From NCBI GenBank assembly GCA_014804615.1, contig JAAUZL010000008.1:190255-254254 (forward strand): DNA of 64,000 nucleotides, written 5' to 3'. How positions within the stretch are numbered: position 1 is the first letter of the stretch; each line of letters starts with the position of its first letter. This document shows positions 30,348-50,624 of this stretch, in pieces. A program made the translations under genes and the position numbers. The stretch comes from Lachnospiraceae bacterium. GTDB taxonomy: Bacteria; Bacillota; Clostridia; Lachnospirales; Lachnospiraceae. The notes beneath the pieces were generated by a model. The model worked only from the letters and a program-made list of their open reading frames with translations, had not been told where the DNA came from and did no database searches.

Positions 30348-31889
30348 TTACTTATCTTTTACAATTTTTGCAATTATTTCCGAAGACAAACCACTTGTAT
30401 TTTGTGTTACGTTTTGTAAAAAAAACCTTCTTTCATCTTTTGGAAGTAGTTCTGAAGCAATTAGTAATGCTCTTTGTCCCCATGCTCCAAGTCCATTATA
30501 GTCTTGCTTCAACTCGCGTATCCATGACTTCTGCTTTGCTGAATATGCTGCTAAAATTATTTCTCTCTTTATATAATCTGATGAATTGTTATACATTTCT
30601 ACCAAACGTGCAATATGATTAAATTTATCTGTTTTAGCAAATAAATTAAGAATAGTTATTTGTAAAAATTCATTTGATCTGATTATAGGATTCTTCAACA
30701 TTCCCAGCAACTTTTCACCTATATTTTCAAGAACTATATTGCTTTCCTGCGCAATAGAAGAAAAATATAATGCAATATCACTAATTGCAGGCATCAAATT
30801 ATCAATTTCCCTAATGGTAACATTAATTGCTGTATCAACACCAACATTGCTCAGTCTTCTAAACAACCATCTAATCCTTTGATAATCCTTATTTTCAGTT
30901 AGATAGCTCATTAATATGTTTTCTATACGTTCTTCACTAAATACTTCTTTATCAACCTCATTAATATTGTCTATACCAATTATTGCATATGGATCTGAGG
31001 AATATGTATTGATTATCTTGATCATTTCCTCTTCTAATTCACTAATTGGATTATCTTTAAGCATATCATTACATTTTTGTAAGAAATCTTCTTTAGTATA
31101 TATTTTAGTTTTATGCCTCTGCATATTCAATTTTAAAGAATCTAGTACCTTTGCCAATTCATATATTACAATCTGCCCTTCGCTTTCTGAATTGACAAAA
31201 ACAATTATATCGTCAGAATATCGGCAATAATCATATCCTTTCATTAACAAATTTTCATCAAGTGGTATAAGACACATTTCAGCAAACAAATGCATTGCAT
31301 GTGGCCCTATCGGGATACCTTGCGATACAGTCTGTGTAGTATTTTGCAACATTCTTCTAATTGATTTAATAATTTGATTCTCAAATCCACAATCAATTAG
31401 TTGATTTTCTAATGTATGATGATAAATTCTATTATAAAAATCAGCAATATCTATGTAAACGGCAAAAGTATACTGGTTCATTTTTTCTTTTGACGTGATC
31501 CAAAAATTTTTCCATGCTTCTTTCCTATCATACATATTACCCTCAGAGGTTGGTTTAAATCTATAATTAAATACCTTTTTTTCCTCTATTGGTACACGCT
31601 TTTCTTCTATTTTATTTCCATATTGGTATATTAGTGCTACAATTAAAATATTATCAATAGGATCTAATTGTATTGCTACTCGATATGAATATTCATCCTT
31701 AGGTATAATAAACCTTCGATATTGTTGCCAATTGTATTCTTCAATTTCAATTTCCTTTAACCTATTAACCAAATATTCTTCATTTTCAAGCAAAATTTCA
31801 TACTCTTTCAATGTTGGAAACAAATCCGTATCCTTTTCTTTCTTGATATGAATTAGAGCCCATCTTATTGATGTTTCTTGTAATTTCAT
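30348..31889 (-). CDS. Reverse transcriptase of the Abi/DRT-like defence type
   Basis: Motif A YIDIADFYNRIYHH; motif B SQGIPIGPHAMHLF; motif C YCRYSDDIIVF; long helical C-terminus. Start MKLQETS at 31889 proposed. Confidence 0.8.
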   Translation of the reverse strand: MKLQETSIRWALIHIKKEKDTDLFPTLKEYEILLENEEYLVNRLKEIEIEEYNWQQYRRFIIPKDEYSYRVAIQLDPIDNILIVALIYQYGNKIEEKRVPIEEKKVFNYRFKPTSEGNMYDRKEAWKNFWITSKEKMNQYTFAVYIDIADFYNRIYHHTLENQLIDCGFENQIIKSIRRMLQNTTQTVSQGIPIGPHAMHLFAEMCLIPLDENLLMKGYDYCRYSDDIIVFVNSESEGQIVIYELAKVLDSLKLNMQRHKTKIYTKEDFLQKCNDMLKDNPISELEEEMIKIINTYSSDPYAIIGIDNINEVDKEVFSEERIENILMSYLTENKDYQRIRWLFRRLSNVGVDTAINVTIREIDNLMPAISDIALYFSSIAQESNIVLENIGEKLLGMLKNPIIRSNEFLQITILNLFAKTDKFNHIARLVEMYNNSSDYIKREIILAAYSAKQKSWIRELKQDYNGLGAWGQRALLIASELLPKDERRFFLQNVTQNTSGLSSEIIAKIVKDK

Positions 31890-32064
31890 TTTCTTATCCT
31901 CTATATCTTTAAATTTTATATGTATCAGCGAATAAATCAAATTACATAATACTAATTTGATTGGCAACATACCATTTCAAAAAAATTAGTAATAAATATA
32001 ATGCTTACACCACAGACAATCCCCTAGACTACCTACCATATATAATAAATAATATACTCTTGTA

Positions 32065-32253: not shown

Positions 32254-35220
32254 CTACATTGTCTCACCCTGATATTTTTCATTTCCAAATGTCATCTCAA
32301 GTAGTTCGTTCGCAATCTTACCATCCACAATACGCATCAGATTATCTTCTGCATCTTCTTTTCCCAAGAAATTCATACTTCCATACCAGACCACTTCGTG
32401 GTCTATAATGCAATAATGCTCACAATAATCTTGTACAAGATTCATCTCGAAGCCAGCCCTTCGCATCTGTTCCTGCAATTCCTGCCAGTATGCACTGTCT
32501 CCATAGCCATAGCAGTCTGGTTTCCATGTGACAATGCCTATGCTAATTCCTGCCTCCTGCTTTTCCCTGAGTATATGAATCATATCATATACTTTTTTGG
32601 TACTAATAGCAGGACTGGAAATTATAATCTCTTTCTCTGCGGAGAGTAAATCTTTCTGGTAGATATCCGCGTAATTATCTATGCCAAAAATTGCATTAGT
32701 CGTTTGTTTATGTGCGTCAATCCCAGAAAAAATATCGTATCCAATCTGTTTGTACGCCTTAAGTCTTTTATGATACATCCTGTCAAACATAGATATATGA
32801 CTATCAACATAATCATATATAATCACGCTTTTCTTGCCCTCATAATCCCTATTCAAACGTCCGGCATACTGCTCCACAACGCCCTTCCATGCCACAGGGG
32901 TTGCCATGATAAGAGTATCCAGCCTCGGATAATCGAATCCTTCTCCTATCAGTTTACCTGTCGCAACAAGGATCATGCTTTCCTCAGACTTGACCTGATC
33001 CATCTGTTTTAAAATCTCTTTATGCTCTTTATTTGAATTTCTGCCGGACAGTAAAAAGACTTTGTCTGCATAATTTATCAGCTGTTGATACAATCGCTGT
33101 GAATGCTCCACATATTTGGAAAGAACCACTGGTGTCCTTCCATCATTCACGCATTGTTTCACATCCCTTATGATTAATTCGTCTCTGTCTTCATTATCAC
33201 GGATTATTTCATATGCCTCGTTTGGATGCATTTTATCCTGTGAAAATCTCGGCGCCACCACTCTTGTAAAGCGCGGATAAACAAGATGCTCTATCCCCTG
33301 CTCCTTTGCCCTGTCCTTTGAAGTATATTGATAACGAATTGGTCCAAGAAGCATATAATTTATTTTTTCCAAACCGTCACCTCTAAATGGTGTAGCCGTT
33401 ACTCCATACACATATTTTGCATTTGCTTCCTGCAAAATATCGACTATTGTATCCGATGCGGCATGATGACATTCATCTATCAAAATGAGTCCATAGTCCC
33501 TTAACCGCCTATGATATTCACCATTCTTACAGATTGAACCAACCATCGCGATATCAATGATGCCTGTAGTGGAATCGTGAGGTCCCTGCAATTTCCCAAT
33601 TATACTTTTTCGTCTCTTCTTACGACCTGTGGGTGTCTCATACTCTGGAAGTTCTTCATTAATATATAAGAACTTTTCCAGTGCCTCTTTCCATTGTTCC
33701 ATCAATGCTGATGACTGAAGAAGAATAAGTGTGTTTACCTGCTTTTTCGCTATAACATTACAGCACACCACCGTCTTTCCAAATGCTGTGGCAGCATTAA
33801 GAATTCCGTTGTCATGTTGAAGAAGCTTTTCTACAGCGGATATCTGTGATTCTTTCAATTCACCAATGAATTCCACATGAATCGGCTGTCCTTTGCTCCG
33901 CTTATCATCTATTTCATACTCCATATTGGCTTTTTCACACTCTTCGATTATATTCTCCAAAATACCTCTTGGAACTATGATGAATCCACCTTCATCACGC
34001 CCCAGATAAATATATCTGTAATTCTCAAAATTAGACAATCCCATAGCTTGATTTTTATAAAACACAGGATTGTCAAACGCCGCCATTCTTCTGATTTGAT
34101 TTTGCATTCTGGGTTGTAAATTCACTGCATTCACATACACACCGTTTGACAATGTAATATGCAGAATCCCATCAACATCTTCCTTTTGAAAGTGCTTTGC
34201 TTTCTCCCATGGCTTTTCATTGTTGCTTTCAAAAATATCTTTGTAATCCGCAACAGTATATGTACTTCCTTCTGTCCATTCCTTTATCTTATCCTCAATA
34301 AACTCTTTCGAAAGTTTTTTCTTGTTAAGCAACACTTCCCACTGATTCGGATATGCATTCCAGTGTTCATCTATGAAGGCACTGTTTCCTTCTTTTATTG
34401 CCTGTCCCTGTAATGGCAGCGCAATCAGATTACCCACTCCGCCTTCCGGAAGATGATCCTGCATGGGCAACATGCGGTCATAAAAGCGAAATGACTTTAA
34501 ATTTACAGACTCTGCTCCTTTATTTAACAGAGCAAAACCAAATTTTCTTGCAAAATCAGCTTCTATGGGTTTTTGGAAGAATATCCAAAGATGTGCGCCC
34601 TTCCCCGAGCGTGAACGCTCTACCAACGCATCAATTCCGTTAATATCACAAATTTTTCTCAGGCTGTCTACTTCTTCTCTCCACAAATCGTCATCATTCG
34701 CAAAATCGCTTTTTCCTGCACCTTTTTCATGATTATCAAAATCGAAAACAATAAATCGGCAGGTATCATCTGCTAAAAGAGGAAAAACACCTATGACATC
34801 TGTGGCATCCTCTGAATTTCCTTTCAAATGGTCAATAATCTGTTCCTTTTTTAACTCCTTATATGCCCGTCTCTGACAATCCTGACATCTCACCTTACTT
34901 CCGGTAATTCTCGGGCAGCCATTTTTCCAAAAGTTATAGCATTGTGTATAATAATTTACTTCCCCAGTAGATTTCTTTATGGTACGCTTGCTATATACAT
35001 CTGTACGTCCCCAAAACATACTAAAGAACGCTTTTGCTTCTGTTTCCGTAATTTCTCTTGGTATAATTCTTGCTCCTTGATTTGGATCATATTCATTGCC
35101 GATGTCATCTATATCTTTTATCGAATAGAAAATCCCTGCATCCGCCAGCAGATTCTTCAAATATTGGTTTTCCTTTTCCAGACATTGTAATCTTTTTTCC
35201 AATTCTGAAATGCTTCTCAT
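32254..35220 (-). CDS. TOTE-conflict-system-like protein: AEP primase + SF2 helicase + PLD nuclease
   Basis: N-terminal primase-like (FIVFDFDNHEKG..VERSRSGKGAHLWIFF); helicase AATAFGKTVV, LILIDECHH, GVTATPFRGDG; C-terminal HYCIIDHEVVWYGSMNFLG. Confidence 0.85.
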   Translation of the reverse strand: MRSISELEKRLQCLEKENQYLKNLLADAGIFYSIKDIDDIGNEYDPNQGARIIPREITETEAKAFFSMFWGRTDVYSKRTIKKSTGEVNYYTQCYNFWKNGCPRITGSKVRCQDCQRRAYKELKKEQIIDHLKGNSEDATDVIGVFPLLADDTCRFIVFDFDNHEKGAGKSDFANDDDLWREEVDSLRKICDINGIDALVERSRSGKGAHLWIFFQKPIEADFARKFGFALLNKGAESVNLKSFRFYDRMLPMQDHLPEGGVGNLIALPLQGQAIKEGNSAFIDEHWNAYPNQWEVLLNKKKLSKEFIEDKIKEWTEGSTYTVADYKDIFESNNEKPWEKAKHFQKEDVDGILHITLSNGVYVNAVNLQPRMQNQIRRMAAFDNPVFYKNQAMGLSNFENYRYIYLGRDEGGFIIVPRGILENIIEECEKANMEYEIDDKRSKGQPIHVEFIGELKESQISAVEKLLQHDNGILNAATAFGKTVVCCNVIAKKQVNTLILLQSSALMEQWKEALEKFLYINEELPEYETPTGRKKRRKSIIGKLQGPHDSTTGIIDIAMVGSICKNGEYHRRLRDYGLILIDECHHAASDTIVDILQEANAKYVYGVTATPFRGDGLEKINYMLLGPIRYQYTSKDRAKEQGIEHLVYPRFTRVVAPRFSQDKMHPNEAYEIIRDNEDRDELIIRDVKQCVNDGRTPVVLSKYVEHSQRLYQQLINYADKVFLLSGRNSNKEHKEILKQMDQVKSEESMILVATGKLIGEGFDYPRLDTLIMATPVAWKGVVEQYAGRLNRDYEGKKSVIIYDYVDSHISMFDRMYHKRLKAYKQIGYDIFSGIDAHKQTTNAIFGIDNYADIYQKDLLSAEKEIIISSPAISTKKVYDMIHILREKQEAGISIGIVTWKPDCYGYGDSAYWQELQEQMRRAGFEMNLVQDYCEHYCIIDHEVVWYGSMNFLGKEDAEDNLMRIVDGKIANELLEMTFGNEKYQGETM

Positions 35221-35361
35221 CAGGAACTCCTTCCTGCTCCTCAAAACAAGATATACTTTTTATCCTTTACCACCCTTTTCATCTCACTAATCCACTACAT
35301 CATACAGTTTTTATATTGTTCAAAGCATTTTTTAGAAGCAGCGGCTATAAATAGAATAGAA

Positions 35362-35766
35362 CTACACTGCAATGATACAGCTTTCCTCATAAAGCGGAAT
35401 TTTAGAATCATGAGTAATAAATTTCAGTCCATCTGCTTTTGCCTGCGCGATCATAATACGATCAAACGGGTCATTATGTACTTGACCCTGATCATGATAT
35501 ACCAAAGTTTCCAACATTTTTATGTGATTATCAGCAATAGGCAGCATTCGATACCCCATCTCTCTGCATAAATCTGATAACCGTGAGCCACTAATATGAA
35601 TTTTATCCGGCTTCGCCATATATTTAATCGTTGTCTCCCAAATAGACGCAGAACTGTAAAAAATATCATTTCCTGCATCTACGATCAGTTTTCTGGCTTG
35701 ACTGGATAACTTAGGATTATCGTCCAGCGCCCAGAGGATAATATGCGTATCCAATAGCAGCTTCAT
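35362..35766 (-). CDS. PIN-domain toxin (VapC-like)
   Basis: MKLLLDTHIILWALDD...SSASIWETTIK...DPFDRIMIAQA. Confidence 0.93.
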   Translation of the reverse strand: MKLLLDTHIILWALDDNPKLSSQARKLIVDAGNDIFYSSASIWETTIKYMAKPDKIHISGSRLSDLCREMGYRMLPIADNHIKMLETLVYHDQGQVHNDPFDRIMIAQAKADGLKFITHDSKIPLYEESCIIAV

Positions 35767-35996
35767 TACATACCTCCAAATAATTTCGCAATTTCAGGAT
35801 TCATTTCGTCAAAGTCATAATCATCCTCATATAAGTCCTGTCCTTTCGCAATGCCAATTCTCTTAGAAACCAGCGTTGCTCGCTTTTCTGTAGAATCCGA
35901 TTGCATGAAGCGGTTAATCATTTCCAATATGAACTGTAGATTATCTTCTGACAATCCATTTACCTTTTGAACTACCTGTTCTTTTAATGTCAACAT
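35766..35996 (-). CDS. Cognate antitoxin of PIN toxin
   Basis: Small ORF overlapping the toxin start; KRIGIAKGQDLYEDDYDFDEMNPEIAKLFGG C-terminal tail. Confidence 0.85.
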   Translation of the reverse strand: MLTLKEQVVQKVNGLSEDNLQFILEMINRFMQSDSTEKRATLVSKRIGIAKGQDLYEDDYDFDEMNPEIAKLFGGM

Positions 35997-36209
35997 GAAA
36001 GCTCCGCCTTTCTCCAAAACAAATCTATTTGCTGTTTATATTATACCGTCAATACGAGTTCCATATTTATTATATACTCAAAAGGCTTTTTTCTCAATCC
36101 GATTCTCTGTTTTGATTTAATAAACTGTTCCAATTATCCGCTCATTGTCCCACTTCCAGTTGGGTACAAAATTTCCAATGGTTTCTACAACATACAAATA
36201 ATACGGATA

Positions 36210-36649: not shown

Positions 36650-39600
36650 CTATTTGAAATAACCCATTTCATCGAGAAATCGAGATTTGGTCACACGAAT
36701 TTGTTTTTCTTGTGCTTTATTTTCGTTAATCCAAGATTTAAACTCATCAGCTGACCACTGATTCCTTAAAACAGTTAGATGAATTGCAGCGCATTGATCG
36801 AATTCATTTTTAGGATCGCTTATATTTGTTGCAATGGCCTCTGATAGGCCATCAACTTCCTGGATATGTAAGGAGGGTGAACAGATACTATAGAGGGCCC
36901 AAGAGAATGCACGTTTTAAACCAAGAGGCGTATCTGTATCTGTATTTACCCACAGCTTAATGAGTCTATTTAAAATATCTTCATCTAAACCTAATGGAAT
37001 AATATTTGTTTCCCCATAACCCGACCAAGCAATACACCAAGCAGCACAAAAACAAGATAGAACGTCATCGCTTTTAAGGAGCCGAAGAAGGGATGAGAAG
37101 ATATTGTGAAGATTGATTTCATTATTATATTCTAACCGAGCAAAACTATTCCACATCATCATTAAAGCACCAGTAATCTGATCTTCAAAGCAACTGCATT
37201 CATTCAATAGATGTTCAATTGTTGAAAGATTAAAATCACCCCGTTCCTCATGACATATCTCAATCCACGACTCACAAAATTCAAAAATATATATAGGGTT
37301 AAGCGTTTTAAAAAGATTAACTTCGATAAATTCTCGATAAGTGGATCCATATTTACTTTTTATTATAGTACTAAAAATATACAAATTTTCTATCAGAAGA
37401 TAATCTTTCTTTTCAATTCGGACTTGATGTTCTTCAAATACTCTCTTTCTCCATATCATTTGAGTAAAAGACTTTTCTAATTGCTCCTTGCTCATAGGCA
37501 CTTCACTCGCAATACAGTTTCCTAAATGCAGAATGGCAATATCTGCCAGTGTATCCTTTTTAGTCGGAGGGTTTGACTCGCAAGTGTTAATAAGATATTC
37601 GATAACCGGCTTTGTCCATCGACCAGAAAGAACAGCGGTCAGAGGAATGACCTCGAACCAATGATCATCTGACATGTGTCCTTTAATTATTGAAAGAAAA
37701 GAAGAGTTTTCTGGGTCGGAAACCCACGCTTCAGCAATGGCCTTTGCAGTAAGATACTCTTGAAAACTTAAGTGTGAAAACTCATAAGAAGGTTCAAGAT
37801 TACCACTTTCATTTTCTTCAAGCCCTAATTGAATTAGTAAGCTACTGCGCTCTTCTACTTGGTCAATAAATTTGTATGGGGATACCTGGGTATAACCTAA
37901 TATCTCAGGTAATGCTTTTCTAGCTTGGATAATATATTGTTGTAATTGGCTCCGAGTGACTTTCTGTTGACCTTGTACTGTCATTGAATAGGCTACAAAA
38001 GCCAGTTGAGGTTCTGTCTCGTCTAAGTCCAATCGTTCGTGGGCGGCGGCGTTCCAGGTAACCAGAAGAAGCTTAATCATCTCCTCATATAAACGGCACT
38101 TTTTGGTGGGGAGGTAACCCACCCAGCGTTTTACAAAAAGTAATGTAGTCAATAGCAGCGGATTTTCTGCCAAAGCAACAATTCGAGGATCACCGATAAT
38201 AATGTCGCAGACTTTTTTTGATTCTTCCGTTGTCTGACTAGACTTCCCCATAATTGCTTCATGCCATTTTAAGCTAAGATATCGTATTTGTGTTTCATCT
38301 AAACCTGCAATAGAGTACTGCTTACAGTAACTGGTTAATGTTCCAGCCACGGTACGGAAACCAGTCTCGCGGGAAGTAATAATCAAATGGACATTAGGAT
38401 AAGTTGCTACAAAGGTTCTTAATTGATTAACAAAACAAATTCGATATTTTTCAACTAATATCTCATCTAGGCCATCAATCAAAAGCAACATATGACCACC
38501 TTGCAATCGTTCTTCAATCAAAGAATTGAACGCTGGTGCATGAAATACAATTTCAGCTCGGTGAACAATAGTTCCAATTATATCTAAAATGCTTTTGGTT
38601 GCGTTATCACCTAAATCACGGCAACGGATATACACTGGGAACCAGTCATATGCAGGTAGTTTATCATTTACTTTTTTACGCCGTTTAGGATCAGCATATG
38701 CTAAAGCTATTCGACGGATCAATGTCGATTTACCACCGCCAGGCTTAGCTAGAATTGCTACTCGGGATGTCTTGGTCAAAACTTCTCGTATAGAAGCTGA
38801 CTGTATTGTAGATTCTTTATTTGACGCACCTGTATCATTATCCTGCTGCTTTAAAACTTCGTAATTGAATGACAATGGCACAAATATACTCTCCAGACTA
38901 ACTTTAATTGCACCAGCTTCCTTATCAGTTGGCATACCTTCAAACTGAATCTCTCCCAATTCAGTTTCTAAATACTTGAAGTATGCTTCTTTTGCTCCTT
39001 GCTTGTCTAAGCTAGCATCATGAATAGTAGATAAATAGGTAAGACCCGAAAAAGGATAGACTCTTTTATCTGCTTTTGCCAAAAGGGATTCAGCAATGCT
39101 ATTAAGTAGTTGATTCCCGTCGGCATGAACGAAAGTAAAATGAGTTGCACTTTGTTGTGGGCAAAGGGAGTAATATAAAACCCATATCCACCCATATTCA
39201 CATGCAATTAAATCTGCTTCTTCGCATAAAGATAGTGTCTCATCTTTTGGAAGTGTAACCGCACTAACGGCTCTACTCAATGAACAGAGCATATTGCCTT
39301 TGATTAGTTCACGTACAACATCTGTAGGTCCCAGTAAAACCAATTCATTACGCTCGTTCCTTTTTTTTCGTACAAGAGAGCGTTCGCGTTCCTGTTCCAG
39401 GGCAGTTGCCGTGAAGCCAGATTGAGATATAAAATATCCAGTAACACTACATCCTTCTTGCTCAAAATTACCACGTTCAACATCAAGAGTACCAACAAAT
39501 TTATTGATATCAGCACCCCCTACTTTTTCTTTTTGAGCTTTACTTTCTACAAGGGCGTAGCGGTTTTCTATGCGATGTTTCAACACCATATCTACTTCTC

Positions 39601-40264
39601 GTCCCGCTCGTTGAACATCAAAGACTGCTTCCCCAAAGCCAAGGGAATGAAGTACATTATGCACTAAATAATTAAATAAGTCCCCCTTCTTATTTCGATT
39701 TGTCTCTAAAAGAAGAATACTTCGAATAATTTCATCCTTTTCAACAGAAATGCTATCAATGCTTCCAGGAAAAGATGGGCGATTCTCATGTTTTCCATCA
39801 ACACTCTGTTTTGTACTATTGATTGCGTTGTTAGGAAAAGTTCCTTTCTTACGTGGATTTTTTGTATGTTCAATTGCGTTGAGTAGATCTTTTTCTGCAA
39901 TTTTTTCCTCACCAACGGAAAATAGGTCGATGTAGACTGTTGTATCATATAATGGGTCGGGGGATACATCTTCTATGCGAATAGGTAAAAATTTCTTAAT
40001 ATTACCTTTCAAATGAGCGTTAAAAGCTGTTTGGAACTCTTTCTTGCAATATTCAGATTCCCAAAATGCAGATGATAAAACTGCAATGTAGTTTTCTGAG
40101 CATTGGAGGAATTCGCTCATTCGTGAAATGAAATCGTCCCCCGGCGAGATATCCCAAGCTTGAAGATAGACGGTATATTTATTTTCTTCCAATGTTCCAG
40201 CAATCCATTTAGCCCAATCTTTGTCATTTTTATTGTAACTTACGAAAAAATCTTTTTTATCCAT
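36650..40264 (-). CDS. TIR + PD-(D/E)XK nuclease-like + NACHT NTPase protein
   Basis: N-term DFFVSYNKNDKDWAKWIAGTLEE..YTVYLQAWDISPGDDF..SSAFWESEYCKKEF (TIR); REVDMVLKHRIENRYALVESKAQK (D-xn-ExK); NACHT AILAKPGGGKSTLIRRIA and MLLLIDGLDEI. Confidence 0.88.
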   Translation of the reverse strand: MDKKDFFVSYNKNDKDWAKWIAGTLEENKYTVYLQAWDISPGDDFISRMSEFLQCSENYIAVLSSAFWESEYCKKEFQTAFNAHLKGNIKKFLPIRIEDVSPDPLYDTTVYIDLFSVGEEKIAEKDLLNAIEHTKNPRKKGTFPNNAINSTKQSVDGKHENRPSFPGSIDSISVEKDEIIRSILLLETNRNKKGDLFNYLVHNVLHSLGFGEAVFDVQRAGREVDMVLKHRIENRYALVESKAQKEKVGGADINKFVGTLDVERGNFEQEGCSVTGYFISQSGFTATALEQERERSLVRKKRNERNELVLLGPTDVVRELIKGNMLCSLSRAVSAVTLPKDETLSLCEEADLIACEYGWIWVLYYSLCPQQSATHFTFVHADGNQLLNSIAESLLAKADKRVYPFSGLTYLSTIHDASLDKQGAKEAYFKYLETELGEIQFEGMPTDKEAGAIKVSLESIFVPLSFNYEVLKQQDNDTGASNKESTIQSASIREVLTKTSRVAILAKPGGGKSTLIRRIALAYADPKRRKKVNDKLPAYDWFPVYIRCRDLGDNATKSILDIIGTIVHRAEIVFHAPAFNSLIEERLQGGHMLLLIDGLDEILVEKYRICFVNQLRTFVATYPNVHLIITSRETGFRTVAGTLTSYCKQYSIAGLDETQIRYLSLKWHEAIMGKSSQTTEESKKVCDIIIGDPRIVALAENPLLLTTLLFVKRWVGYLPTKKCRLYEEMIKLLLVTWNAAAHERLDLDETEPQLAFVAYSMTVQGQQKVTRSQLQQYIIQARKALPEILGYTQVSPYKFIDQVEERSSLLIQLGLEENESGNLEPSYEFSHLSFQEYLTAKAIAEAWVSDPENSSFLSIIKGHMSDDHWFEVIPLTAVLSGRWTKPVIEYLINTCESNPPTKKDTLADIAILHLGNCIASEVPMSKEQLEKSFTQMIWRKRVFEEHQVRIEKKDYLLIENLYIFSTIIKSKYGSTYREFIEVNLFKTLNPIYIFEFCESWIEICHEERGDFNLSTIEHLLNECSCFEDQITGALMMMWNSFARLEYNNEINLHNIFSSLLRLLKSDDVLSCFCAAWCIAWSGYGETNIIPLGLDEDILNRLIKLWVNTDTDTPLGLKRAFSWALYSICSPSLHIQEVDGLSEAIATNISDPKNEFDQCAAIHLTVLRNQWSADEFKSWINENKAQEKQIRVTKSRFLDEMGYFK

Positions 40265-40545
40265 AGAGTATTACACCTTTTTTAATTTGAAGATTTGTAA
40301 CCACATTATACGTTCAATTTCTATGTTTATCAACAATTTTTTCCATAATATAAAAAAAATGGTTTTTTCACTGAATAGATTTTTGATTTGATAATAGATA
40401 TGGTTATAAGAATAGCTCTAATTCTTTTTCAGTAAGTTCGTGAAATGGTGTAGAGGTTCTTAAGAAATAATTTATCGATTTCCATACCAATCCTTCATAG
40501 AATTTAAGACAATTAATACAATTTCAAACTACAAGTTTTCCACAC

Positions 40546-40842
40546 TCATTTGTGCTCATTAACATACCCGCATTGTTCATCCCTTGCTACAGCTAATTCC
40601 TTATTATAATCCACCACCTGAGATATCGGAATCACCATATTTCCCAATTCCAAGAATGCTCTCATTTTAGGAGTTACTACCTCTTCGTCATCAAAAAACT
40701 TATTATCCTCCTCCATAAATATCTTTTCAATTTCCGGATTCATTTCATCAAAATCGTAATCATCATTATACAAATCCTGTCCTTTTGCAATCCCAATCCT
40801 ACTTGCCACATTTCCTGATATATCAATTATATAAGACACCAT
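40546..40842 (-). pseudogene. Antitoxin-gene remnant
   Basis: SRIGIAKGQDLYNDDYDFDEMNPEIEKIF matches the antitoxin at 35766-35996 but has an unrelated N-terminus and no adjacent toxin. Confidence 0.6.
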
Positions 40843-41030: not shown

Positions 41031-41237
41031 TCATTGCTTCCATTGCCTGCTCTGCTGTCCATCCCATGATTTCCATAAGATTTTAATAGAATCAAACAAG
41101 GTCTTGATTCTTGTCTCTTCGGCTCTCTCATTAGCTCTTTTCTCTGCCAGCTTTTCAAACACTGTACTCATGTTTCCCGGTCTCTCTGTCTCTCTAAATA
41201 CTGACATCATTCGCAATTCATCATAACAATCCCACAT
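41031..41237 (-). pseudogene. Fragment of Rpn/PD-(D/E)XK transposase-like gene
   Basis: Short ORF ELRMMSVFRETERPGNMSTVFEKLAEKRANERAEETRI resembling the C-terminal region of such proteins; truncated. Confidence 0.35.
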
Positions 41238-41718
41238 GTGTCAACACTATATTATAAAGTTTCTTATCAAGCCTTATACCATTAGCCAGCATCATATCCA
41301 GACACATCTTTACATCTGATGACTGAATTAACCCTTTGTCATACGCAAGCATAAGAATACCTACAGTCCCAATATACCTGACATTCAACTGCTTCGCAAC
41401 ACTGCGACCCTTGTGCTCATCCATAAGCAACAAGTCTGCCTTCTGCTCATCATACATGATAAGTGCTTCGCTTTCTCCGGCATCTAACCCTGTAACTAAA
41501 CGCAACACATTCACAGATTTTACATTCTCCACAGAAATCATTTTCAGGAAATCCAACATTTTAACTGTCTTAGCTTCCTTTGAATATACCGGATTTTCCG
41601 TCAGTTCTCTGTAAACTGCTTTCGGGATCAGCACATTACCATATAATTTCTGCAGCAATTCCAGATGATTTGCTTTCAGCAGCGAGATAATAGGTGTTGT
41701 ATCAGATATTACAATCAT
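41221..41718 (-). CDS. DUF3368 PIN-like toxin
   Basis: MIVISDTTPIISLLKANHLELLQKLYGNVLIPKAVYREL...GLDAGESEALIMYDEQKADLLLMDEHKGR. Confidence 0.88.
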   Translation of the reverse strand: MIVISDTTPIISLLKANHLELLQKLYGNVLIPKAVYRELTENPVYSKEAKTVKMLDFLKMISVENVKSVNVLRLVTGLDAGESEALIMYDEQKADLLLMDEHKGRSVAKQLNVRYIGTVGILMLAYDKGLIQSSDVKMCLDMMLANGIRLDKKLYNIVLTHVGLL

Positions 41719-41990
41719 GGCATCACTTCCTTTAAATGACGAACTATTTCCAATTCTTCATCCAATTCCTCGTCCGTCATCTCAATATAGGAAAGCCCAA
41801 GCTTTCCGTATAACGTAATCAAATCCATTTTAAAGATACCCAATATCTCAGCCGCTCTTCCGTGGGAAATGATCCCCCTCCGAATATACGGATATAATAT
41901 CATAGCATTTCTTTCAAGCTGATCTTCCTCACTACTTGGTTTTGCAAATGTTATCAGTTTTTCCGGCATCTCCAAGCTTACTATTGCCAT
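41715..41990 (-). CDS. UPF0175 family antitoxin-like protein
   Basis: Overlaps DUF3368 gene by 4 nt; ILYPYIRRGIISHGRAAEILGIFKMDLITLYGKLGLSYIEMTDEELDEEL. Confidence 0.88.
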   Translation of the reverse strand: MAIVSLEMPEKLITFAKPSSEEDQLERNAMILYPYIRRGIISHGRAAEILGIFKMDLITLYGKLGLSYIEMTDEELDEELEIVRHLKEVMP

Positions 41991-42069: not shown

Positions 42070-42507
42070 TCAATACACACTTTTCTCTTCCCGTTCCAGA
42101 ACATGCCTAAACTGCTCCAACTCCAATTCCGCTTTCCAGTTCCTCCTTTCTGCTGACCTCTCTTTATCAAATAGATAAGCCGCACCATCCAATATATCTA
42201 CAATCGTTACCACAAGTGCCAGAAAATCCCGTTTCAATTCCTGATAACCTTCTTCCGACAATGAGAAATCGCCCGACTGTATTTGTCCGGCGATTTCTTT
42301 CATAACTTCCTGCATTTCCTGTAAGGCATCCACTATTCGTTGTATATTTTCCCTCTTACCGACTACGGTAATATAGGAGTACACACAGCTTCTTGTAATA
42401 AAATCTTTCTTATAAATACCGCTTAATGCGGCTCTCTGTTCTATAATTGCCCTCGCCCATGCACTAGGACGAAAGGCTATCGTTGATTCCTTATGCTTTC
42501 CTGGCAT
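42070..42507 (-). CDS. MobC-like / relaxosome-type protein
   Basis: STIAFRPSAWARAIIEQRAALSGIYKKDFITRSC..., ribbon-helix-helix-like N-terminus followed by helices. Confidence 0.45.
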   Translation of the reverse strand: MPGKHKESTIAFRPSAWARAIIEQRAALSGIYKKDFITRSCVYSYITVVGKRENIQRIVDALQEMQEVMKEIAGQIQSGDFSLSEEGYQELKRDFLALVVTIVDILDGAAYLFDKERSAERRNWKAELELEQFRHVLEREEKSVY

Positions 42508-43594
42508 TGCTATCTTCCTCCTCTTCAACTACTCCTTCTACAAGACAATTTAACTGCTCCGCAAGATTCCTCGATTGATCTGGGTATAGGTGAGAATATG
42601 TATCGAGTGTTGTCTGAATTTTTTCATGTCCAAGTCTCTCCGAGACAAGTTTAGGCTGCACCCCTAATTTTGAAATTAAAAGTGATGCATGGCTGTGCCT
42701 CAGATCATGCAATCTGATTTTTTTCACGCCAGATAATCCTGTTCCTCTAATCATTTCTTTCTCTAAATATGATTTTGTTATCATGAACAATCTGTCATTT
42801 GCCATCATGCCATACAGTTTGCTGACATACTCTTCTAATTCTGCCACCAGAAAATCTGGAAGAGTAATAATCCTTTTTCCCTTTACGGTTTTTGGTTCTG
42901 TAACCACATCCCTGCCATTGATTCTCTGACAGGATTTCGTGATTGATAAAGTCATTTTGTCCGCATCAAAATCAGCCAGCGTAAGAGCAAGCAGTTCTCC
43001 AAGGCGAATGCCCGTCCAATAAAGTGTCAGAAACGCATAATAAGAGACAGGCTTATCCTTTACAAACTCAATAAAAGTTTCAAATTCTTCCTGTGTCCAA
43101 AACCTCATTTCTTCTGCCTTTCCCTTTCCCATAGATCCCGCCTGTGTACATGGGTTTCTAGGCAAGTCATAATACCTTACAGCATAATTGAATATTGCGC
43201 TAAGCTGATTATTGATAGTTTTTAGGTAGGTTTGAGAATATCCCTGTTTCATAATGCTATTCTGCCACCGCCGTATATCTGCCGCTGTTATATCGGCAAT
43301 CTTTTTATTTCCAAAATATGGCAATACTTTAAGTTCTACAATATAATCCTTAGTTCGCACTGTATTTTCCCGCAAACGTTCTTTCATATCGTCCCTGTAA
43401 AGCTGCCAGAATGAAGCAAAATCCATATCCAAATTATGTGATTGCTGATTAATAAATTTATTTGCCCATTCAGTTGCCTCTTTCCTAGTTTTGAAATTAC
43501 GTTTATGCTTTTTAATATTCTTTCCCCTATAATCCTTATAATAGAATTGAATATCCCAAAGTCCTTTTTCATTTTTTGTAACAGTCATATTCAT
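42491..43594 (-). CDS. Tyrosine recombinase / integrase
   Basis: Arm-binding AP2-like N-terminus; catalytic TGIRLGELLAL, HDLRHSHASLLI, LGHEKIQTTLDTYSHL. Confidence 0.95.
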   Translation of the reverse strand: MNMTVTKNEKGLWDIQFYYKDYRGKNIKKHKRNFKTRKEATEWANKFINQQSHNLDMDFASFWQLYRDDMKERLRENTVRTKDYIVELKVLPYFGNKKIADITAADIRRWQNSIMKQGYSQTYLKTINNQLSAIFNYAVRYYDLPRNPCTQAGSMGKGKAEEMRFWTQEEFETFIEFVKDKPVSYYAFLTLYWTGIRLGELLALTLADFDADKMTLSITKSCQRINGRDVVTEPKTVKGKRIITLPDFLVAELEEYVSKLYGMMANDRLFMITKSYLEKEMIRGTGLSGVKKIRLHDLRHSHASLLISKLGVQPKLVSERLGHEKIQTTLDTYSHLYPDQSRNLAEQLNCLVEGVVEEEEDSNARKA

Positions 43595-43649
43595 ACATCC
43601 CTTCTAAAATTTTCCCCAAGAGTTTTTTCTCTTGGGGAGTAAAAATGAT

Positions 43650-43835
43650 TTATACCGTCATACCGTACAGTCGCTCTGCAAGAAATTTTTTAGGGACTTT
43701 GCCCGCTGTAACTATGTAACCCTGCATTGCCAATTCCTCATTCAATTGCTTGACAACTTTGTAGGCTTTTGCTCTGGACACGCCTAGAATCTCCATAACC
43801 TCCTGCGCTGTGTAATACAAACATGCCTGTGCCAT
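43650..43835 (-). CDS. Excisionase-like HTH protein
   Basis: YYTAQEVMEILGVSRAKAYKVVKQLNEEL, directly upstream of integrase. Confidence 0.75.
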   Translation of the reverse strand: MAQACLYYTAQEVMEILGVSRAKAYKVVKQLNEELAMQGYIVTAGKVPKKFLAERLYGMTV

Positions 43836-43849
43836 ATTTTATCCTCCTT

Positions 43850-45868
43850 CTACTCTTTGTGAAGTACCTTGCCACTGATAAAGGCTCTACGCACTTGATA
43901 AAGGTCATCCTCATCTATTTCCTTTTTGTCCAACCCGCATATCTTATCTATATCCGGAAGAATCTGTTCCACCATCAGATCATCTATCCGTTCCATCAAG
44001 ATTTCCATATACGGGTGCCCAATATTTATCTGAATCACTGGTTTGTACTCTACGATACAGCGCTTTTCCATCATCGGTTCTCCGTAATTGAATTTACCAT
44101 TCTTCTCATCACGAACTATGCACACAGGGTATTTAACGGCCGTTCTTCCCCAATAGCCATCTGATCGCCGTTGTTTGTAAATAATCTGCATTTTCTTCAG
44201 CAGCATTGGTAAATGATCTATCATCTCATCCGCTGAAACACATGAAACCGGGTACTCATTTAACACATCGCTTACAGCTATATACAATAGCCTCATCAGT
44301 CTCTCCTCCCTAACGATCACATATGGTTTCCCAACACTCAGATCATGCTGCACCTGCGAATTTCTTAAGAGAGATTTTTCATAATCCTCTATAAATAGGA
44401 TATCATCATCCTCTTGAAGCATAAAATAATCTTGCCGATATTTATACCCACTCTCTGCATATTTCATATTGTTTTGATAACGTGCGGTTCGTACCTTGCA
44501 GTCTCTCACCACATTGTACAAGGCTTTTTGAACAACCATCTGCTCGCCGCCTAATAGCGCGAATGTATTATCGCACAGAGATTCTATCGCTAACTCTGCT
44601 GCCTCATTGCATCTAACAATAAATTCATGCGTCAAATCGCTCTCACTAAAATACTTTTCTAGTAAGACATATGCCATTTCAACCATATATCTGTTTTCAT
44701 TGAGTCTTGTAGCATTTCCGATATCCCCGTATATCCTGTTTCCATTTCTCATTTCGCTAAGCTTGTCCATGATAAGCGTTTTGAAATCATTATCTTCCAT
44801 TTTAGTAATGAGCCATTTAATGTAACCAGCGCACACGGTTGTGACCCATAACGGGTTCTTCTGCAAAGTGCGCAATATCTCAGAATTTCTAGGCTCCTTT
44901 AAGAATCCATCAACGTTTAGATATAGGAGTCTCGCGTTTTGAGACTCTTGTGTCTGCATATACTCGCCTGTAATCAGTGCGCATGTATCAATTAGTTGCG
45001 CTTTTGGCTGTCCTCTCATCACGTCCGTTAGCCTCCCATTAAAAACACTCCTCAAGATATCGTCAATTTTGATCTGAGCACTGTTTTTTCGTTCTCGTAC
45101 AGACTCCTTTTTGACATCATCGAACAGGAATACGCTTCCAGAAGAATCACACAAACTTTTCAAGACATAATTTCTATTTGCGGTTGCACTTACAAAATTG
45201 CTGTTCAGCTCTTCATCCTCAAATAGATACGCGCTAACTACTTTCGCGAGGCTGGTCTTACCTGAGCCGCTATCACCTGCTAACCAAAGCGTAATTTTCA
45301 TAAATGCCGATTCACCAATCTTTTTAAAATATCCGTTTGTGATTGCCATGATATTTAATAAAAATAACGGATAAAACACCTTTGGATTGTGATTATATTC
45401 TCTAAACATTTCTTTAATCACCTCCTTAACTTCTTTTTGGCCCATAATCGTTTCCGGCGGAAGGAAATACCCCTCAACCCCTGAATAAATTTGAGGATCA
45501 AACCCTTTTTTGCAAATACTTCCGTTGGAAAATACAAAAACCCACTTATTATTTACCTGCTGCAGACCATTTCGATCAGTTTGGTACCGAATATCTTTCT
45601 CATCAAACTGCTTTCGCAGTATCTTCTCACGAAGCTGCGTGTACAGTTCATCCTCATCAATATCACCGAGAGCAATATTTCGTAAAAATCTCGTCCGTCG
45701 GATATTGTTTTCAGAAACCTGAAAGCTGAAGCATTCACCGGGCGCTTGCACGCTAATACCATATGCAACCGAATGCTTGTTTACCAGCACAATCTTGTTA
45801 ATTGACAAGAATATTCCATCCACCACTTTAATGCTATTTGCATTTTGTTTTTCTACTTGATTATTCAT
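43850..45868 (-). CDS. DUF927-like helicase/ATPase
   Basis: Walker A LWLAGDSGSGKTSLAKV; VFLFDDVKKES; size and context of plasmid/IME replication-type proteins. Confidence 0.65.
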   Translation of the reverse strand: MNNQVEKQNANSIKVVDGIFLSINKIVLVNKHSVAYGISVQAPGECFSFQVSENNIRRTRFLRNIALGDIDEDELYTQLREKILRKQFDEKDIRYQTDRNGLQQVNNKWVFVFSNGSICKKGFDPQIYSGVEGYFLPPETIMGQKEVKEVIKEMFREYNHNPKVFYPLFLLNIMAITNGYFKKIGESAFMKITLWLAGDSGSGKTSLAKVVSAYLFEDEELNSNFVSATANRNYVLKSLCDSSGSVFLFDDVKKESVRERKNSAQIKIDDILRSVFNGRLTDVMRGQPKAQLIDTCALITGEYMQTQESQNARLLYLNVDGFLKEPRNSEILRTLQKNPLWVTTVCAGYIKWLITKMEDNDFKTLIMDKLSEMRNGNRIYGDIGNATRLNENRYMVEMAYVLLEKYFSESDLTHEFIVRCNEAAELAIESLCDNTFALLGGEQMVVQKALYNVVRDCKVRTARYQNNMKYAESGYKYRQDYFMLQEDDDILFIEDYEKSLLRNSQVQHDLSVGKPYVIVREERLMRLLYIAVSDVLNEYPVSCVSADEMIDHLPMLLKKMQIIYKQRRSDGYWGRTAVKYPVCIVRDEKNGKFNYGEPMMEKRCIVEYKPVIQINIGHPYMEILMERIDDLMVEQILPDIDKICGLDKKEIDEDDLYQVRRAFISGKVLHKE

Positions 45869-46057
45869 AGAAATTTCCTCCTCGCATAATATTTGGGGGA
45901 CATGTCCTGGTTATAATCCTACCAATTTCAAAAACAAACTTATATACTAAATCCTTCCGCGAATCAAAGAATTATTAACATAAAATGCCACATTTTTTGC
46001 TTTTTGCGTAAAAAATAGGGGAAGCGTTGTGCGCCTCCCCTTCCATTTAGAAATACA

Positions 46058-47485
46058 CTATTTACTCGGATATAAAAGTTCTCTATACGGCATATAATCC
46101 AGTACTGTTTTTTTTCGGATATGCTTTAAGTAAAAAATACAATCAAGATATTCTTTCCTTATTTTTTTATGATAGCGTTTAGAATAATAATCTCTAAGTT
46201 TCTCCTTATCCTCTCTATAAGCTGCATCTGTTAAATCTCCTTCCCAGCTTTCACCAGCCGAAATACTAATATCACCCTGGATTGATTTTGTGATCATATT
46301 CAGTTCGTATAATGCTTCCACTTTCATGTCTACAACATCATCGTCTTTATTCCTCTTATGCTTAAAGAGTCCTATATTTTCTACAATCATATTACAAGCA
46401 TATATATAATCCTCTTTTCTCCACCTATCGTTTTCTATTACCTCTAACAGTTCTTTGGTAGAAGCTTTCCTAATCATTGCTCGTAAACATTTATCATCAA
46501 AATTATTCTCATAATACTTAGAAAAGAATTGTATTGGCAATTTCGGGAAGCAATCATAAGCCTCCTTCACTTCCCCTTTAAACGCTGTGCCCCTTCGAAA
46601 AAATTTTTCCACGTATTCTTGGTCTTTCTCATACCTCTCCAGAAATTCCCATGTATTAAAAATATCCTCCACCTTACGCAACTCATCTATAGTATCGAAA
46701 AGACTCAGCCACTTTATATACCATTTACTAAGCTTTTCATATAAATTAATATAAACAGCTTTGCGAGTATCTTTACTAAATAATCTTTTAACATACTGCC
46801 CGTTCATTCTATCCAAGAAACAATCAATTACTATTCTCTCTATGGTTTTTTTGTGTTCTTGATACGTATTCCACGCCTTGTTATCAATACTTTCTTCATC
46901 GCTTTTATTGCCAACCTCTTTTTCATTTCCCCCTGACTTTTGTCCACTATACAATTCAAATCTGGATTCATCTATCTTCCCAATATATCTCCAAACCTTG
47001 TCCAGTTCATTCCTTGATCTGGGCTTGCCCTTACATGAATCAAACATTTTCAATTCCTTGATTTGATCTATCAAACAAAAAAGTTTCCTAACCTCTTTTA
47101 TCTGATCCTCTGACTGTGCTTTCATTAAATATTCGTCCTTTGTCCATGGTAATAGATTTTGAAGAATATCAATAATCCTAATCATGTTTTCATATGAGCT
47201 TTCCTTCTCCATCTCTTTATCCAGCCCAAACAAATTCTCCAGATTTATTCTTACTTCGCTTACATCTTCTCCTGCAAAAATGAAGTACCCTTTGCTCTTA
47301 CCAGACGAAATACGTACTTGGCTACTTCTATACCAATTTATCATTTCTTCTTGAAATCCAAGCTTTTCGAGTATCTCTCTAAATTTTCTTACTAATTCAT
47401 CTCTTTCACGCTTTACCTCGTCCTTATTCCTTCCATCCTCTTCTAGCAGATCAACCACTGTCCAATAGCCTCTTTTTAAACTCAC
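46058..47485 (-). CDS. Hypothetical protein (475 aa)
   Basis: Intact charged ORF, no family recognised. Confidence 0.6.
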   Translation of the reverse strand: MSLKRGYWTVVDLLEEDGRNKDEVKRERDELVRKFREILEKLGFQEEMINWYRSSQVRISSGKSKGYFIFAGEDVSEVRINLENLFGLDKEMEKESSYENMIRIIDILQNLLPWTKDEYLMKAQSEDQIKEVRKLFCLIDQIKELKMFDSCKGKPRSRNELDKVWRYIGKIDESRFELYSGQKSGGNEKEVGNKSDEESIDNKAWNTYQEHKKTIERIVIDCFLDRMNGQYVKRLFSKDTRKAVYINLYEKLSKWYIKWLSLFDTIDELRKVEDIFNTWEFLERYEKDQEYVEKFFRRGTAFKGEVKEAYDCFPKLPIQFFSKYYENNFDDKCLRAMIRKASTKELLEVIENDRWRKEDYIYACNMIVENIGLFKHKRNKDDDVVDMKVEALYELNMITKSIQGDISISAGESWEGDLTDAAYREDKEKLRDYYSKRYHKKIRKEYLDCIFYLKHIRKKTVLDYMPYRELLYPSK

Positions 47486-47808
47486 AACAACACCTCAATA
47501 GATTTTTCCATATACGTCTCCATCATATAAAAATCGGACAAACTATAAAAAAGCATATTTATTTCAATCTTTCATTCACCACTTGCCTCATCCCTGCTAC
47601 CCATAATATGGCAATCATGTGACTTTGTCCAGTACGATCATTGCCCCGTCTTCTTGATTCTTACAGCATATAACAATGAATTTGCCAAAAATGTGACATG
47701 GCCAAAGTTTATCATCCAGTCATGTCACATTTTTAAGCAAGTACAATATTTACCCTTTTCATGGTTTCTCGCAAACCATAAAAACCACATTAGTGTATTC
47801 TTTTTATT

Positions 47809-47895
47809 CTATCCATCACTCTCACCAGCCTTATTTATCGCCGCCAGAATGGTTGTTAAAATGCCGATTACTATTACCTTTAATACTTCATTCAT
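47809..47895 (-). CDS. Small hydrophobic peptide (28 aa)
   Basis: MNEVLKVIVIGILTTILAAINKAGESDG with upstream AAAGGGTGATACAT; absent from ORF track because of length. Confidence 0.4.
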   Translation of the reverse strand: MNEVLKVIVIGILTTILAAINKAGESDG

Positions 47896-47947
47896 ATGTA
47901 TCACCCTTTTCTATAACACAACTATTTCGATGGCTGCCAGTATCTCA

Positions 47948-48853
47948 TCAAGCACACATTTTGATTTCATCTGCTCCGGCATCATAGAAATAAACATGAT
48001 CTGAAAGCTTGTCTTCAATATCAAGTTCTTCTTCATTTACTAATTTTACAATGCTTCTGTAATAGTCTACGCTCTTTTTCCCATCAGCCGAAACGAAGAT
48101 CGTTTGATGTATAGATGCTGGCAGAATATAGAAGTCCCGACCATCAGCGAATCTACGCACCTGCTTCCTGTTCAGGATTCCTGCTGCTCCGTAATACATC
48201 GAGTCATTTGTATAGATGTAGAAATCTTCTGTCTGCTCATCCCCCTGTTGATCAGCCTCATAGGAGCCTCCATATACCTGTTCTACAACAAAACTCCGTA
48301 TATCACGGAAACAGTAACCGTCATCCGCAAGATTCTCCAATGCCTGTCTGTGAAGTTCCTCCGCACTAATCCCATAAGCTTCCAGCATTTGGTAATTGAT
48401 TTTTACACTAGCATAGCGCCCATCTATTTCTTTTCGATAAATATACGCCACAGACAGGTCTAGCATAGGAATAGAAACCACTTTTTCAAACATTTCCTGA
48501 TTATCCTCTGTAGAGAGCAGAATCGGATATATGCTTTTCTTTACCTGTTCCCACTCCATAATCTTCTGCAACATTTCTGAAATGCCTCCCATCTCCCTGT
48601 ATTCTTCGTTCATTTCATAGATCGCTCTGGCACATCCGGCGATACTCATATCTCCCTCACAGTACGCACCGTAAAACTTCTGCAGCGAAATTGCCGGGCA
48701 TACTCTTCCATCTGACTCATCCACGAAGATTCGGATACCATCATAATGCTTCCCGTTATTTTTCAATATCTCAACCAGCCCAAGCTGTACGTCATCGCCG
48801 CAGATTTCTCGAAGCCTTTCCAGTACCTCTTCCCTAAATACTTCATATTTCAT
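47948..48853 (-). CDS. DUF5688 family protein
   Basis: MKYEVFREEVLERLREICGDDVQLGLVEILKNNGKHYDGIRIF pattern. Confidence 0.75.
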   Translation of the reverse strand: MKYEVFREEVLERLREICGDDVQLGLVEILKNNGKHYDGIRIFVDESDGRVCPAISLQKFYGAYCEGDMSIAGCARAIYEMNEEYREMGGISEMLQKIMEWEQVKKSIYPILLSTEDNQEMFEKVVSIPMLDLSVAYIYRKEIDGRYASVKINYQMLEAYGISAEELHRQALENLADDGYCFRDIRSFVVEQVYGGSYEADQQGDEQTEDFYIYTNDSMYYGAAGILNRKQVRRFADGRDFYILPASIHQTIFVSADGKKSVDYYRSIVKLVNEEELDIEDKLSDHVYFYDAGADEIKMCA

Positions 48854-48866
48854 CCTGCTTCCTCCT

Positions 48867-49595
48867 TTACGCCACTTCCATAGATTTGGTTTTTGCAAGA
48901 GCAGCCATCACCTTTTTATATGAGTCCTCCGACATTTTCTCTGGCTCACTAATCCGATATCTTGCCTGTACCGCCTGTAGTTCCACTCCTGTGCGCTGCA
49001 GTTCTTTTTGTAACAGTTCCATTTGTGCCTCGGTAATGCTGTCTCCTCCGCCTGTTTCCAGCCCCTGTCGTTTTGCTTTCTCCTGCTTCATTTCATACAC
49101 AGTCTTTCCCCTCTCATTGACGATCACCAAGCAGTTTATTTCCCTTTCGCTGTTATACCCGATACGGTCTACTGAAAAATGCTCATTGCAGTAGAACTTA
49201 TCGTTCTTTTTCTGGATGGGAGCTTTCCCTGCTGGTATCCAGATAAAAGGCGCTGTATAGAGTTCCCTGCCGATCCCCCAGTTGAAACACGCGCGCTTGA
49301 AGCTGTCGGAAGCCTGTCCTTTCTCTTTCTCCGAATAGCTCATAGTACCTACATCCTGCTTGGCTATCCATTCCCCTGTTTCCTTATCATAGATCTCTAC
49401 CGTGCAGTAAAGATTCCCCTCTATGCTCTGGTGGCTCCGCTTCCATCCAAAGGGCCCGAAGCTCTCATCAAGGATACGCTGGTCTACCCTCGCATCCTTA
49501 TAGAGCAACAGGCTCAAGCCATTTTCTTTGATCACGGACACCCTGCACTCGATCTCATCCGTTTTAAGCAGCCTGATCAGACTCTGTTCCATCTT
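48867..49595 (-). CDS. Rad52-like single-strand annealing protein
   Basis: RILDESFGPFGWKRSHQSIEGNLYCTVEIYDKETGEWIAKQDVGT...GQASDSFKRACFNWGIGRELY. Confidence 0.85.
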   Translation of the reverse strand, partial: KMEQSLIRLLKTDEIECRVSVIKENGLSLLLYKDARVDQRILDESFGPFGWKRSHQSIEGNLYCTVEIYDKETGEWIAKQDVGTMSYSEKEKGQASDSFKRACFNWGIGRELYTAPFIWIPAGKAPIQKKNDKFYCNEHFSVDRIGYNSEREINCLVIVNERGKTVYEMKQEKAKRQGLETGGGDSITEAQMELLQKELQRTGVELQAVQARYRISEPEKMSEDSYKKVMAALAKTKSMEVA

Positions 49596-49694
49596 TTTTC
49601 TCCTTTTCCGCATACGAATCTATTTTTTTCAGGAACGCTTCCAGTTCATAACGCGCATATTCCCTCAGTTTCTTTTCTCTCATAGCCAGCCCTC

Positions 49695-50624
49695 CTATGC
49701 TGCTTTCACTTCAAACCGTCTGGAGTGGGAAACCTTCCCATAATCGGCATAAAGCTCCGGTTTCTCTTCCCTGATGCGCTTTGTATCAAGCTTCGTGGAG
49801 TCGATGTTTTTCCATGAGACACGGAAACACTCACTGCTCGCAAGCTCATTGTCCTGCATGAACAGCTTCACTTCCTGCTCAATCTGCTTCTGTTCCTCCT
49901 GCAACTCCGCAATAAATCCAAGGATTTCCTCACGCCTCCTTAATTTTTCATCAAACCCAACAAGTTCAATGGCGCTCGCTTTCCTTGCGGTATGGAAATA
50001 CTGTTCCAGCACTTCATCACAGGCCTTACTGCCATCCGGCGGTGGGATAACACCCGGCACTACATGGTTATTCCAGAAATCCTCTTCTATTTCAATGAGA
50101 CGGTTTATCAGTTCATCGTCCCACTCTAACTTCCGGTAGGTAAACTCTCTGCCTAAGATGACTGCCGCGATATACCATGTTCTTTTTCCTGTGACTGCCA
50201 TGTAATGGTAACACTGCATGATATAATGGAGCGGGATATTGCCGTCCGCCCATTTGTCAGCATTATAGGCGCTCGCGGTCTTGCATTCCAGTCCGGCATC
50301 CTCGCCTACAATCAGCCTGTCCACATCCGCAATCATAAAGGGATGCCCCGCACTCCGGTACATGAAATTAGATTTGCGCACCTTTAATCCCGTCGCCTCC
50401 ATAAACCGCTGCGCCACATAATCTTCCAGATCGTGGCCGATACGGATTGCCTCGCTGTCCTGTTCCTTCAATGTTTCGCTCGTCTTATCTTGAAATACTT
50501 TCATGGCACTGCTGTATGGATTCACGCCGCAGATCGCCCCTGCATCAGAACCTCCGATTCCTGATTTCCTTAAACGGAGCCATTCTGTGTTATCGACCCC
50601 TGCCAATGATATTTTTTCAAACAT
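49695..50624 (-). CDS. YqaJ-like recombinase / lambda-type exonuclease
   Basis: RLRKSGIGGSDAGAICGVNPYSS...VGEDAGLECKTASAYNADKW...YYIMQCYHYM. Confidence 0.9.
   Translation of the reverse strand: MFEKISLAGVDNTEWLRLRKSGIGGSDAGAICGVNPYSSAMKVFQDKTSETLKEQDSEAIRIGHDLEDYVAQRFMEATGLKVRKSNFMYRSAGHPFMIADVDRLIVGEDAGLECKTASAYNADKWADGNIPLHYIMQCYHYMAVTGKRTWYIAAVILGREFTYRKLEWDDELINRLIEIEEDFWNNHVVPGVIPPPDGSKACDEVLEQYFHTARKASAIELVGFDEKLRRREEILGFIAELQEEQKQIEQEVKLFMQDNELASSECFRVSWKNIDSTKLDTKRIREEKPELYADYGKVSHSRRFEVKAA

Follow-up and report, generated by a model that had tools for sequence, protein, structure and literature searches.

Bacterial STAND receptors have been described as a combination of effector, switch and sensor with one effector per protein. 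The protein studied here, encoded in a stretch of DNA of 64,000 nucleotides (the window) from a gut bacterium of the Lachnospiraceae, is predicted to join two, which raises the question of whether both effectors are likely to work and how they came to share one switch.

Domain architecture of the TIR-Mrr-NACHT protein

The 1204-aa protein is encoded by a single open reading frame running from 40264 to 36650 on the minus strand (36650..40264); the plus strand over this interval is full of stops. Pfam profiles for TIR_2, Mrr_cat and NACHT each exceeded their gathering scores, confirming the claim of an earlier note that a TIR, a restriction-endonuclease-like region and a NACHT NTPase lie in this one frame, and all motifs quoted there (WESEYCKKEF, EVDMVLKHR..ALVESKAQK, GGGKST and LLLIDGLDEI) were located in it. 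The gene is present as a single copy in its own genome. A ribosome-binding-like AAAGGTG is found 9 nt 5′ of the ATG, and a promoter-like TTGATA-17-TATAAT was detected by pattern matching approximately 40 nt 5′ of the start codon (40305..40333, minus strand); this site provides weak support, because the total count of promoter-like patterns in a region-wide scan was not above chance. An assembly chimera as the origin of the fusion was ruled out, since two MAGs (L002 and L006) encode the same architecture with ~55% identity to the window protein.

The TIR domain comprises residues 1-140 (39845..40264, minus strand) and was clearly recognised by Pfam TIR_2 (residues 6-119, 102 bits, E 4e-29). Glu76 (codon 40039-40037, minus strand), which lies within WESEYCKKEF, the motif in which the earlier note placed a candidate catalytic Glu, is kept in all three TIR-bearing members (window, L002 and L006). 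In alignments it coincides with the corresponding Glu in PdTIR and in the CRISPR-associated TIR Cat1, and the aromatic-x-x-x-Glu position of TIR NADases is filled by Y72-CKK-E76. Nevertheless, Glu76 alone is no proof of an NADase, because the scaffold TIRs of animal Toll-like receptors also conserve the Glu at the catalytic position. The best sequence matches were the TIRs of these receptors and MyD88-type TIRs, both scaffolds; matches to Thoeris TIR models were weak. Structure prediction of residues 1-490 yielded a mean pLDDT of 46 and is usable only for the class of both domains. Foldseek searches with this model retrieved SPARTA TIR-APAZ (E 3.8e-5) as well as SARM1 and PdTIR, the NADase TIRs of SPARTA being the closest structural matches.

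Residues 179-335 (39260..39730, minus strand) represent an Mrr-type PD-(D/E)XK nuclease domain according to Mrr_cat, the structural model and Foldseek. In the window protein, Mrr_cat covered residues 194-294 at a score of 27.9 bits, the cut-off being 21. This weak score is not due to chance, because all nine aligned family members match Mrr_cat (best E 2.5e-9) and NACHT; TIR_2 matches three of the nine. The D...E-x-K triad formed by D225, E240 and K242 is likewise invariant in all nine. One helix of Mrr nucleases often carries a further acidic residue; FN (N198) stands at this helix in the Mrr-NACHT family, a point against the two-effector reading. A model of residues 175-480 reached pLDDT values of 77-89 across the Mrr core and was poor in the remainder. 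The alpha-beta core of the PD-(D/E)XK fold was present by model and Foldseek, and the Foldseek targets of this segment, headed by MspJI (E 1.4e-4) and followed by BspD6I, NucS, AF1548, Cap4, Shedu and Avs3, were mostly PD-(D/E)XK enzymes. The Mrr profile run against PDB sequences matched LlaBIII alone (E 0.29), which was not taken as evidence by itself. The reading put forward in the earlier note had been made to depend on catalytic residues being conserved among homologs in both domains and on the middle region not folding as something else; it withstood both tests, with the residues conserved as given above and the middle region assigned to PD-(D/E)XK nucleases. As expected, the models place the two effector halves in the classes of SPARTA/SARM1-type TIRs and MspJI/NucS/Cap4-type nucleases.

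Between both effectors lies a linker (residues 141-178, 39731..39844, minus strand) that varies in length and sequence. The nuclease is followed by a conserved region (residues 336-480, 38825..39259, minus strand), modelled with low confidence, in which the motifs GWIWVLYYS and ELGEIQFEGMP..IFVPL are invariant in 9/9 members. The NACHT STAND NTPase module (residues 481-845, 37730..38824, minus strand) was identified by Pfam NACHT (residues 502-669, 37.5 bits versus a cut-off of 26.7) and by the motifs Walker A, AKPGGGKST (38749-38723, minus strand), and Walker B, LLLIDGLDE (38488-38462, minus strand), which are conserved in all nine members, with PGAGKST as the variant in L006; the nSTAND3 profile stayed below its cut-off (18.1 versus 27.2 bits). 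Identity in NACHT is ~70% across the family, whereas the C-terminal region (residues 846-1204, 36653..37729, minus strand) is only 33-40% identical. Such fastest divergence within the protein is as expected of a sensor, and the region presumably serves as one. With its effector domains at the N-terminus and a variable C-terminal region, the protein has the tripartite effector-NACHT-sensor layout.

In the L002/L006 pair, dN/dS, a rough figure here with synonymous sites near saturation, amounted to ~0.04 for the TIR, ~0.10 for the Mrr domain, 0.11 for residues 336-480, 0.07 for NACHT, 0.17 for the C-terminal region and 0.55 for the linker; values for the C-terminal region span 0.17-0.39 overall. 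The TIR and Mrr domains are under strong purifying selection, which is far weaker on the linker.

Relatives, loss of the TIR and genomic neighbourhood

A scan of GTDB genomes, which required exact 8-residue peptides and so undercounts, detected nine relatives, all belonging to Bacillota wherever the record is placed (L011 and L007 are one protein, and L019 and L009 one locus). Among the ten distinct relatives including the window protein, three carry a TIR, six have none and one retains a TIR stub. The three known TIR bearers are the window protein and the two MAG proteins from ruminant gut (L002 and L006; sheep and goat), which are close relatives of each other and both carry TIR and Mrr on NACHT. 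In the six TIR-less members (L003, L004, L005, L007, L008 and L010) the protein begins directly at the Mrr domain, which is their sole recognisable effector, and no separate TIR gene was found near them. Long intact frames are present in nine members. These sequences show Mrr-NACHT to be the constant core and the TIR to be an optional extra.

The protein at L009 starts MNKKDFFVSYNKKDK, corresponding to the first TIR residues, and continues in frame with the linker FPG, after which the Mrr domain is complete (L009:5956-6552). The stub comprises 12-15 residues and ~150 residues, the TIR plus part of the linker, are missing, demonstrating an in-frame loss of nearly the whole TIR in which the first residues and the linker end were kept. 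A frameshift after the Mrr domain of L009 may be an assembly error.

Between the window protein and L002/L006, identity is 65-68% in the TIR, 70% in NACHT and 55-57% in Mrr. The closeness of TIR and NACHT identity points to TIR, Mrr and NACHT having been inherited jointly as one unit rather than by separate or repeated fusions. In a tree built without the TIR columns, whose deep forks stayed open, a single clade of TIR bearers was not rejected (p-AU 0.51); the only supported change is the TIR loss in L009, and the root leaves both gain and loss of the TIR possible.

The protein is rare. Of 397 genomes sampled within the same family, one other had a full-length relative; the other genomes sampled from the same order and class had none. 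With a TIR+Mrr profile, 399 genomes of the phylum yielded nothing beyond the window and L009, the locus with the stub, and surveys of ~400 and 180 Bacillota genomes revealed no other TIR+Mrr+NACHT protein. In the 180 genomes, the eight longest-frame Mrr_cat proteins beside the window protein (frames of about 670 aa or more were inspected) were restriction, helicase or other enzymes or single-effector STANDs, and the seven scanned TIR proteins of at least about 770 aa were TIR-STANDs or TIR-repeat proteins with no nuclease. Neither the IMG/VR viral contigs nor the phage records contained a match, and similarity on plasmids was restricted to the NACHT level. The window's own genome encodes another TIR protein on contig C18 (L066:1906-3495), in which an AbiTii domain is followed by TIR_2.

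A site-specific recombinase gene is located near all three TIR bearers. In the window, a TOTE-type helicase gene lies at a distance of 1.4 kb from the TIR-Mrr-NACHT gene, and at 4.7 kb there is a DRT8-like reverse transcriptase gene (30348-31970, minus strand; PADLOC Drt8, E 1.5e-148), a defence-associated type. The adjoining 996-aa protein (32254-35244, minus strand), consisting of a TOTE-type archaeo-eukaryotic primase, an SF2 helicase and a PLD nuclease, is together with the reverse transcriptase gene part of a defence island. No flanking direct repeats of at least 25 nt were found as a mark of insertion.

Several smaller features surround these genes. Two small ORFs (35766-36017 and 40546-40842, both minus strand) flank the TIR-Mrr-NACHT gene and have the peptide RIGIAKGQDLY(E/N)DDYDFDEMNPEI in common; the former precedes a PIN toxin (35362-35766), and the latter resembles a fused or decayed antitoxin remnant. 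A second toxin-antitoxin-like pair (41221-41990, minus strand) consists of a DUF3368 PIN-like protein and a UPF0175 antitoxin-like protein. An integrated element (42491-50624, minus strand) encodes a tyrosine integrase, a 672-aa P-loop protein, a Rad52-like annealing protein and a YqaJ recombinase; the defence genes stand on the far side of its integrase.

Proposed mechanism and competing explanations

We propose that the gene probably encodes a stand-alone, NLR-like anti-phage protein of the NACHT-type STAND class with two effectors, an Mrr core and an optional TIR. The variable C-terminal region would recognise an invader signal or component, upon which the NACHT module, in a model transferred from other STAND proteins, would exchange nucleotide and oligomerise. 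Clustering would turn on the Mrr-type PD-(D/E)XK nuclease, resulting in DNA cleavage, and in TIR-bearing members it would also activate the N-terminal TIR, resulting in consumption of NAD+. The outcome would be shutdown of the infected cell or destruction of the invading DNA. There is perhaps an even chance that one receptor assembly fires both the DNA cutter and the NAD+ consumer, such that a phage blocking one output meets the other, and that the TIR is a removable part gained or lost on a constant core.

It might also be argued that only one effector works. If the Mrr domain were the sole enzyme, the TIR could be a non-catalytic assembly domain that aids clustering as in Toll-like receptors and MyD88, which would fit its best sequence matches, the majority of relatives lacking a TIR and the lineage that deleted it. 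This appears rather unlikely: Glu76 is kept in 3/3 members under very strong purifying selection, the nearest structures are the NADase TIRs of SPARTA, and the bacterial TIRs studied to date are mostly NAD+-processing enzymes. The converse, a TIR as sole effector next to a non-cutting, nucleic-acid-sensing domain with the NACHT-associated inactive restriction endonuclease fold, is unlikely as well. A Pfam family of this kind exists (PF22722, NACHT-associated inactive restriction endonuclease 1), and inactive restriction endonucleases paired with NTPases have been proposed as nucleotide sensors (PMC12839542). However, the window protein showed no match to PF22722 up to E 10 (HMMER filters apply), the residues D225, E240 and K242 are invariant throughout the aligned family, and in the six TIR-less members an inactive Mrr domain would leave no recognisable effector.

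Other explanations concern the product of the TIR or the role of the protein as a whole. The TIR might turn NAD+ into a signalling nucleotide, which would act at another site or adjust the nuclease, with no depletion of NAD+. Thoeris TIRs signal by means of a nucleotide made from NAD+, and the TIR has its weak matches to Thoeris models; we nevertheless consider this quite improbable, as the adjoining genes in the window, L002 and L006 include no candidate receptor, and the locus resembles a one-gene system. That the protein is no defence system, or that the gene is functionless decaying cargo, seems very improbable. The distribution is patchy and L009 is both devoid of its TIR and frameshifted, but the long intact frames of nine members, the low dN/dS of all enzymatic domains and the neighbouring recombinase and defence genes argue against it.

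The natural members with Mrr only, with TIR and Mrr, or with a deleted TIR represent a ready-made comparison set, in which one could ask whether a second effector confers extra protection, prevents phages from escaping or shifts the suicide threshold.

Comparison with known systems

One experimental precedent for a nuclease-NACHT protein is bNACHT25, which confers nuclease-dependent phage protection with DNA degradation (PMC12169576). Like the window protein, bNACHT25 and bNACHT32 (clade 6) are encoded by a single gene and consist of an N-terminal PD-(D/E)XK DNase, a NACHT switch and a C-terminal sensor region (PMC12169576), and the NACHT score of the window protein (37.5 bits, above 26.7) together with PGGGKST and LLLIDGLDE assigns its NTPase to the kind found in bNACHT/NLR-related STAND proteins. 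The likeness seen is one of layout, and unlike both proteins the window protein has an extra TIR before the nuclease. The TIR-NACHT-TPR STANDs of Bacillota (for example L061, L062 and L063) likewise combine an N-terminal TIR_2 with a NACHT-type NTPase, but they possess no nuclease and end in C-terminal TPR repeats.

The SIR2-NACHT protein WP_173993517.1 of Agrobacterium fabrum (L013) is 37% identical in its NACHT region to window residues 426-886 and carries SIR2 in place of TIR and Mrr. The same kind of NACHT with a different effector indicates that the switch accepts different effectors, a point of relevance to the gain and loss of outputs by immune receptors. This protein is encoded on a conjugative plasmid (L013:2548-5403), and no other plasmid match comes closer to the window protein in NACHT. 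Avs (AVAST) proteins share the effector-NTPase-sensor layout; in their described tripartite form, however, they have an nSTAND3 NTPase and one N-terminal effector, whereas the window protein has a NACHT. The effectors of Avs1-4 are nucleases, and Avs5 with its SIR2 offers a parallel to a STAND protein with an NADase arm (PMC12931631).

A PADLOC bSEFIR model aligned over residues 2-307; bSEFIR was rejected as a TIR-plus-restriction-endonuclease precedent, the inspected clostridial bSEFIR-like proteins being without the endonuclease motif by eye. TIR and Mrr on one NACHT protein appear undescribed in the open-access literature searched, an earlier description in the main bNACHT or Avs papers being possible. 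The earlier note had called a tandem effector design unusual, and unusual it is. It is not unprecedented, because a computational survey had already noted STAND-GT4 proteins that bear a TIR or caspase at the N-terminus (Kaur et al. 2021, PMC8195603). In what that survey says of STAND-GT4, a glycosyltransferase, frequently at the C-terminus, serves as the second effector, and a pairing of TIR with nuclease is not mentioned; nevertheless, as in the window protein, two predicted effector domains are placed on one STAND protein.
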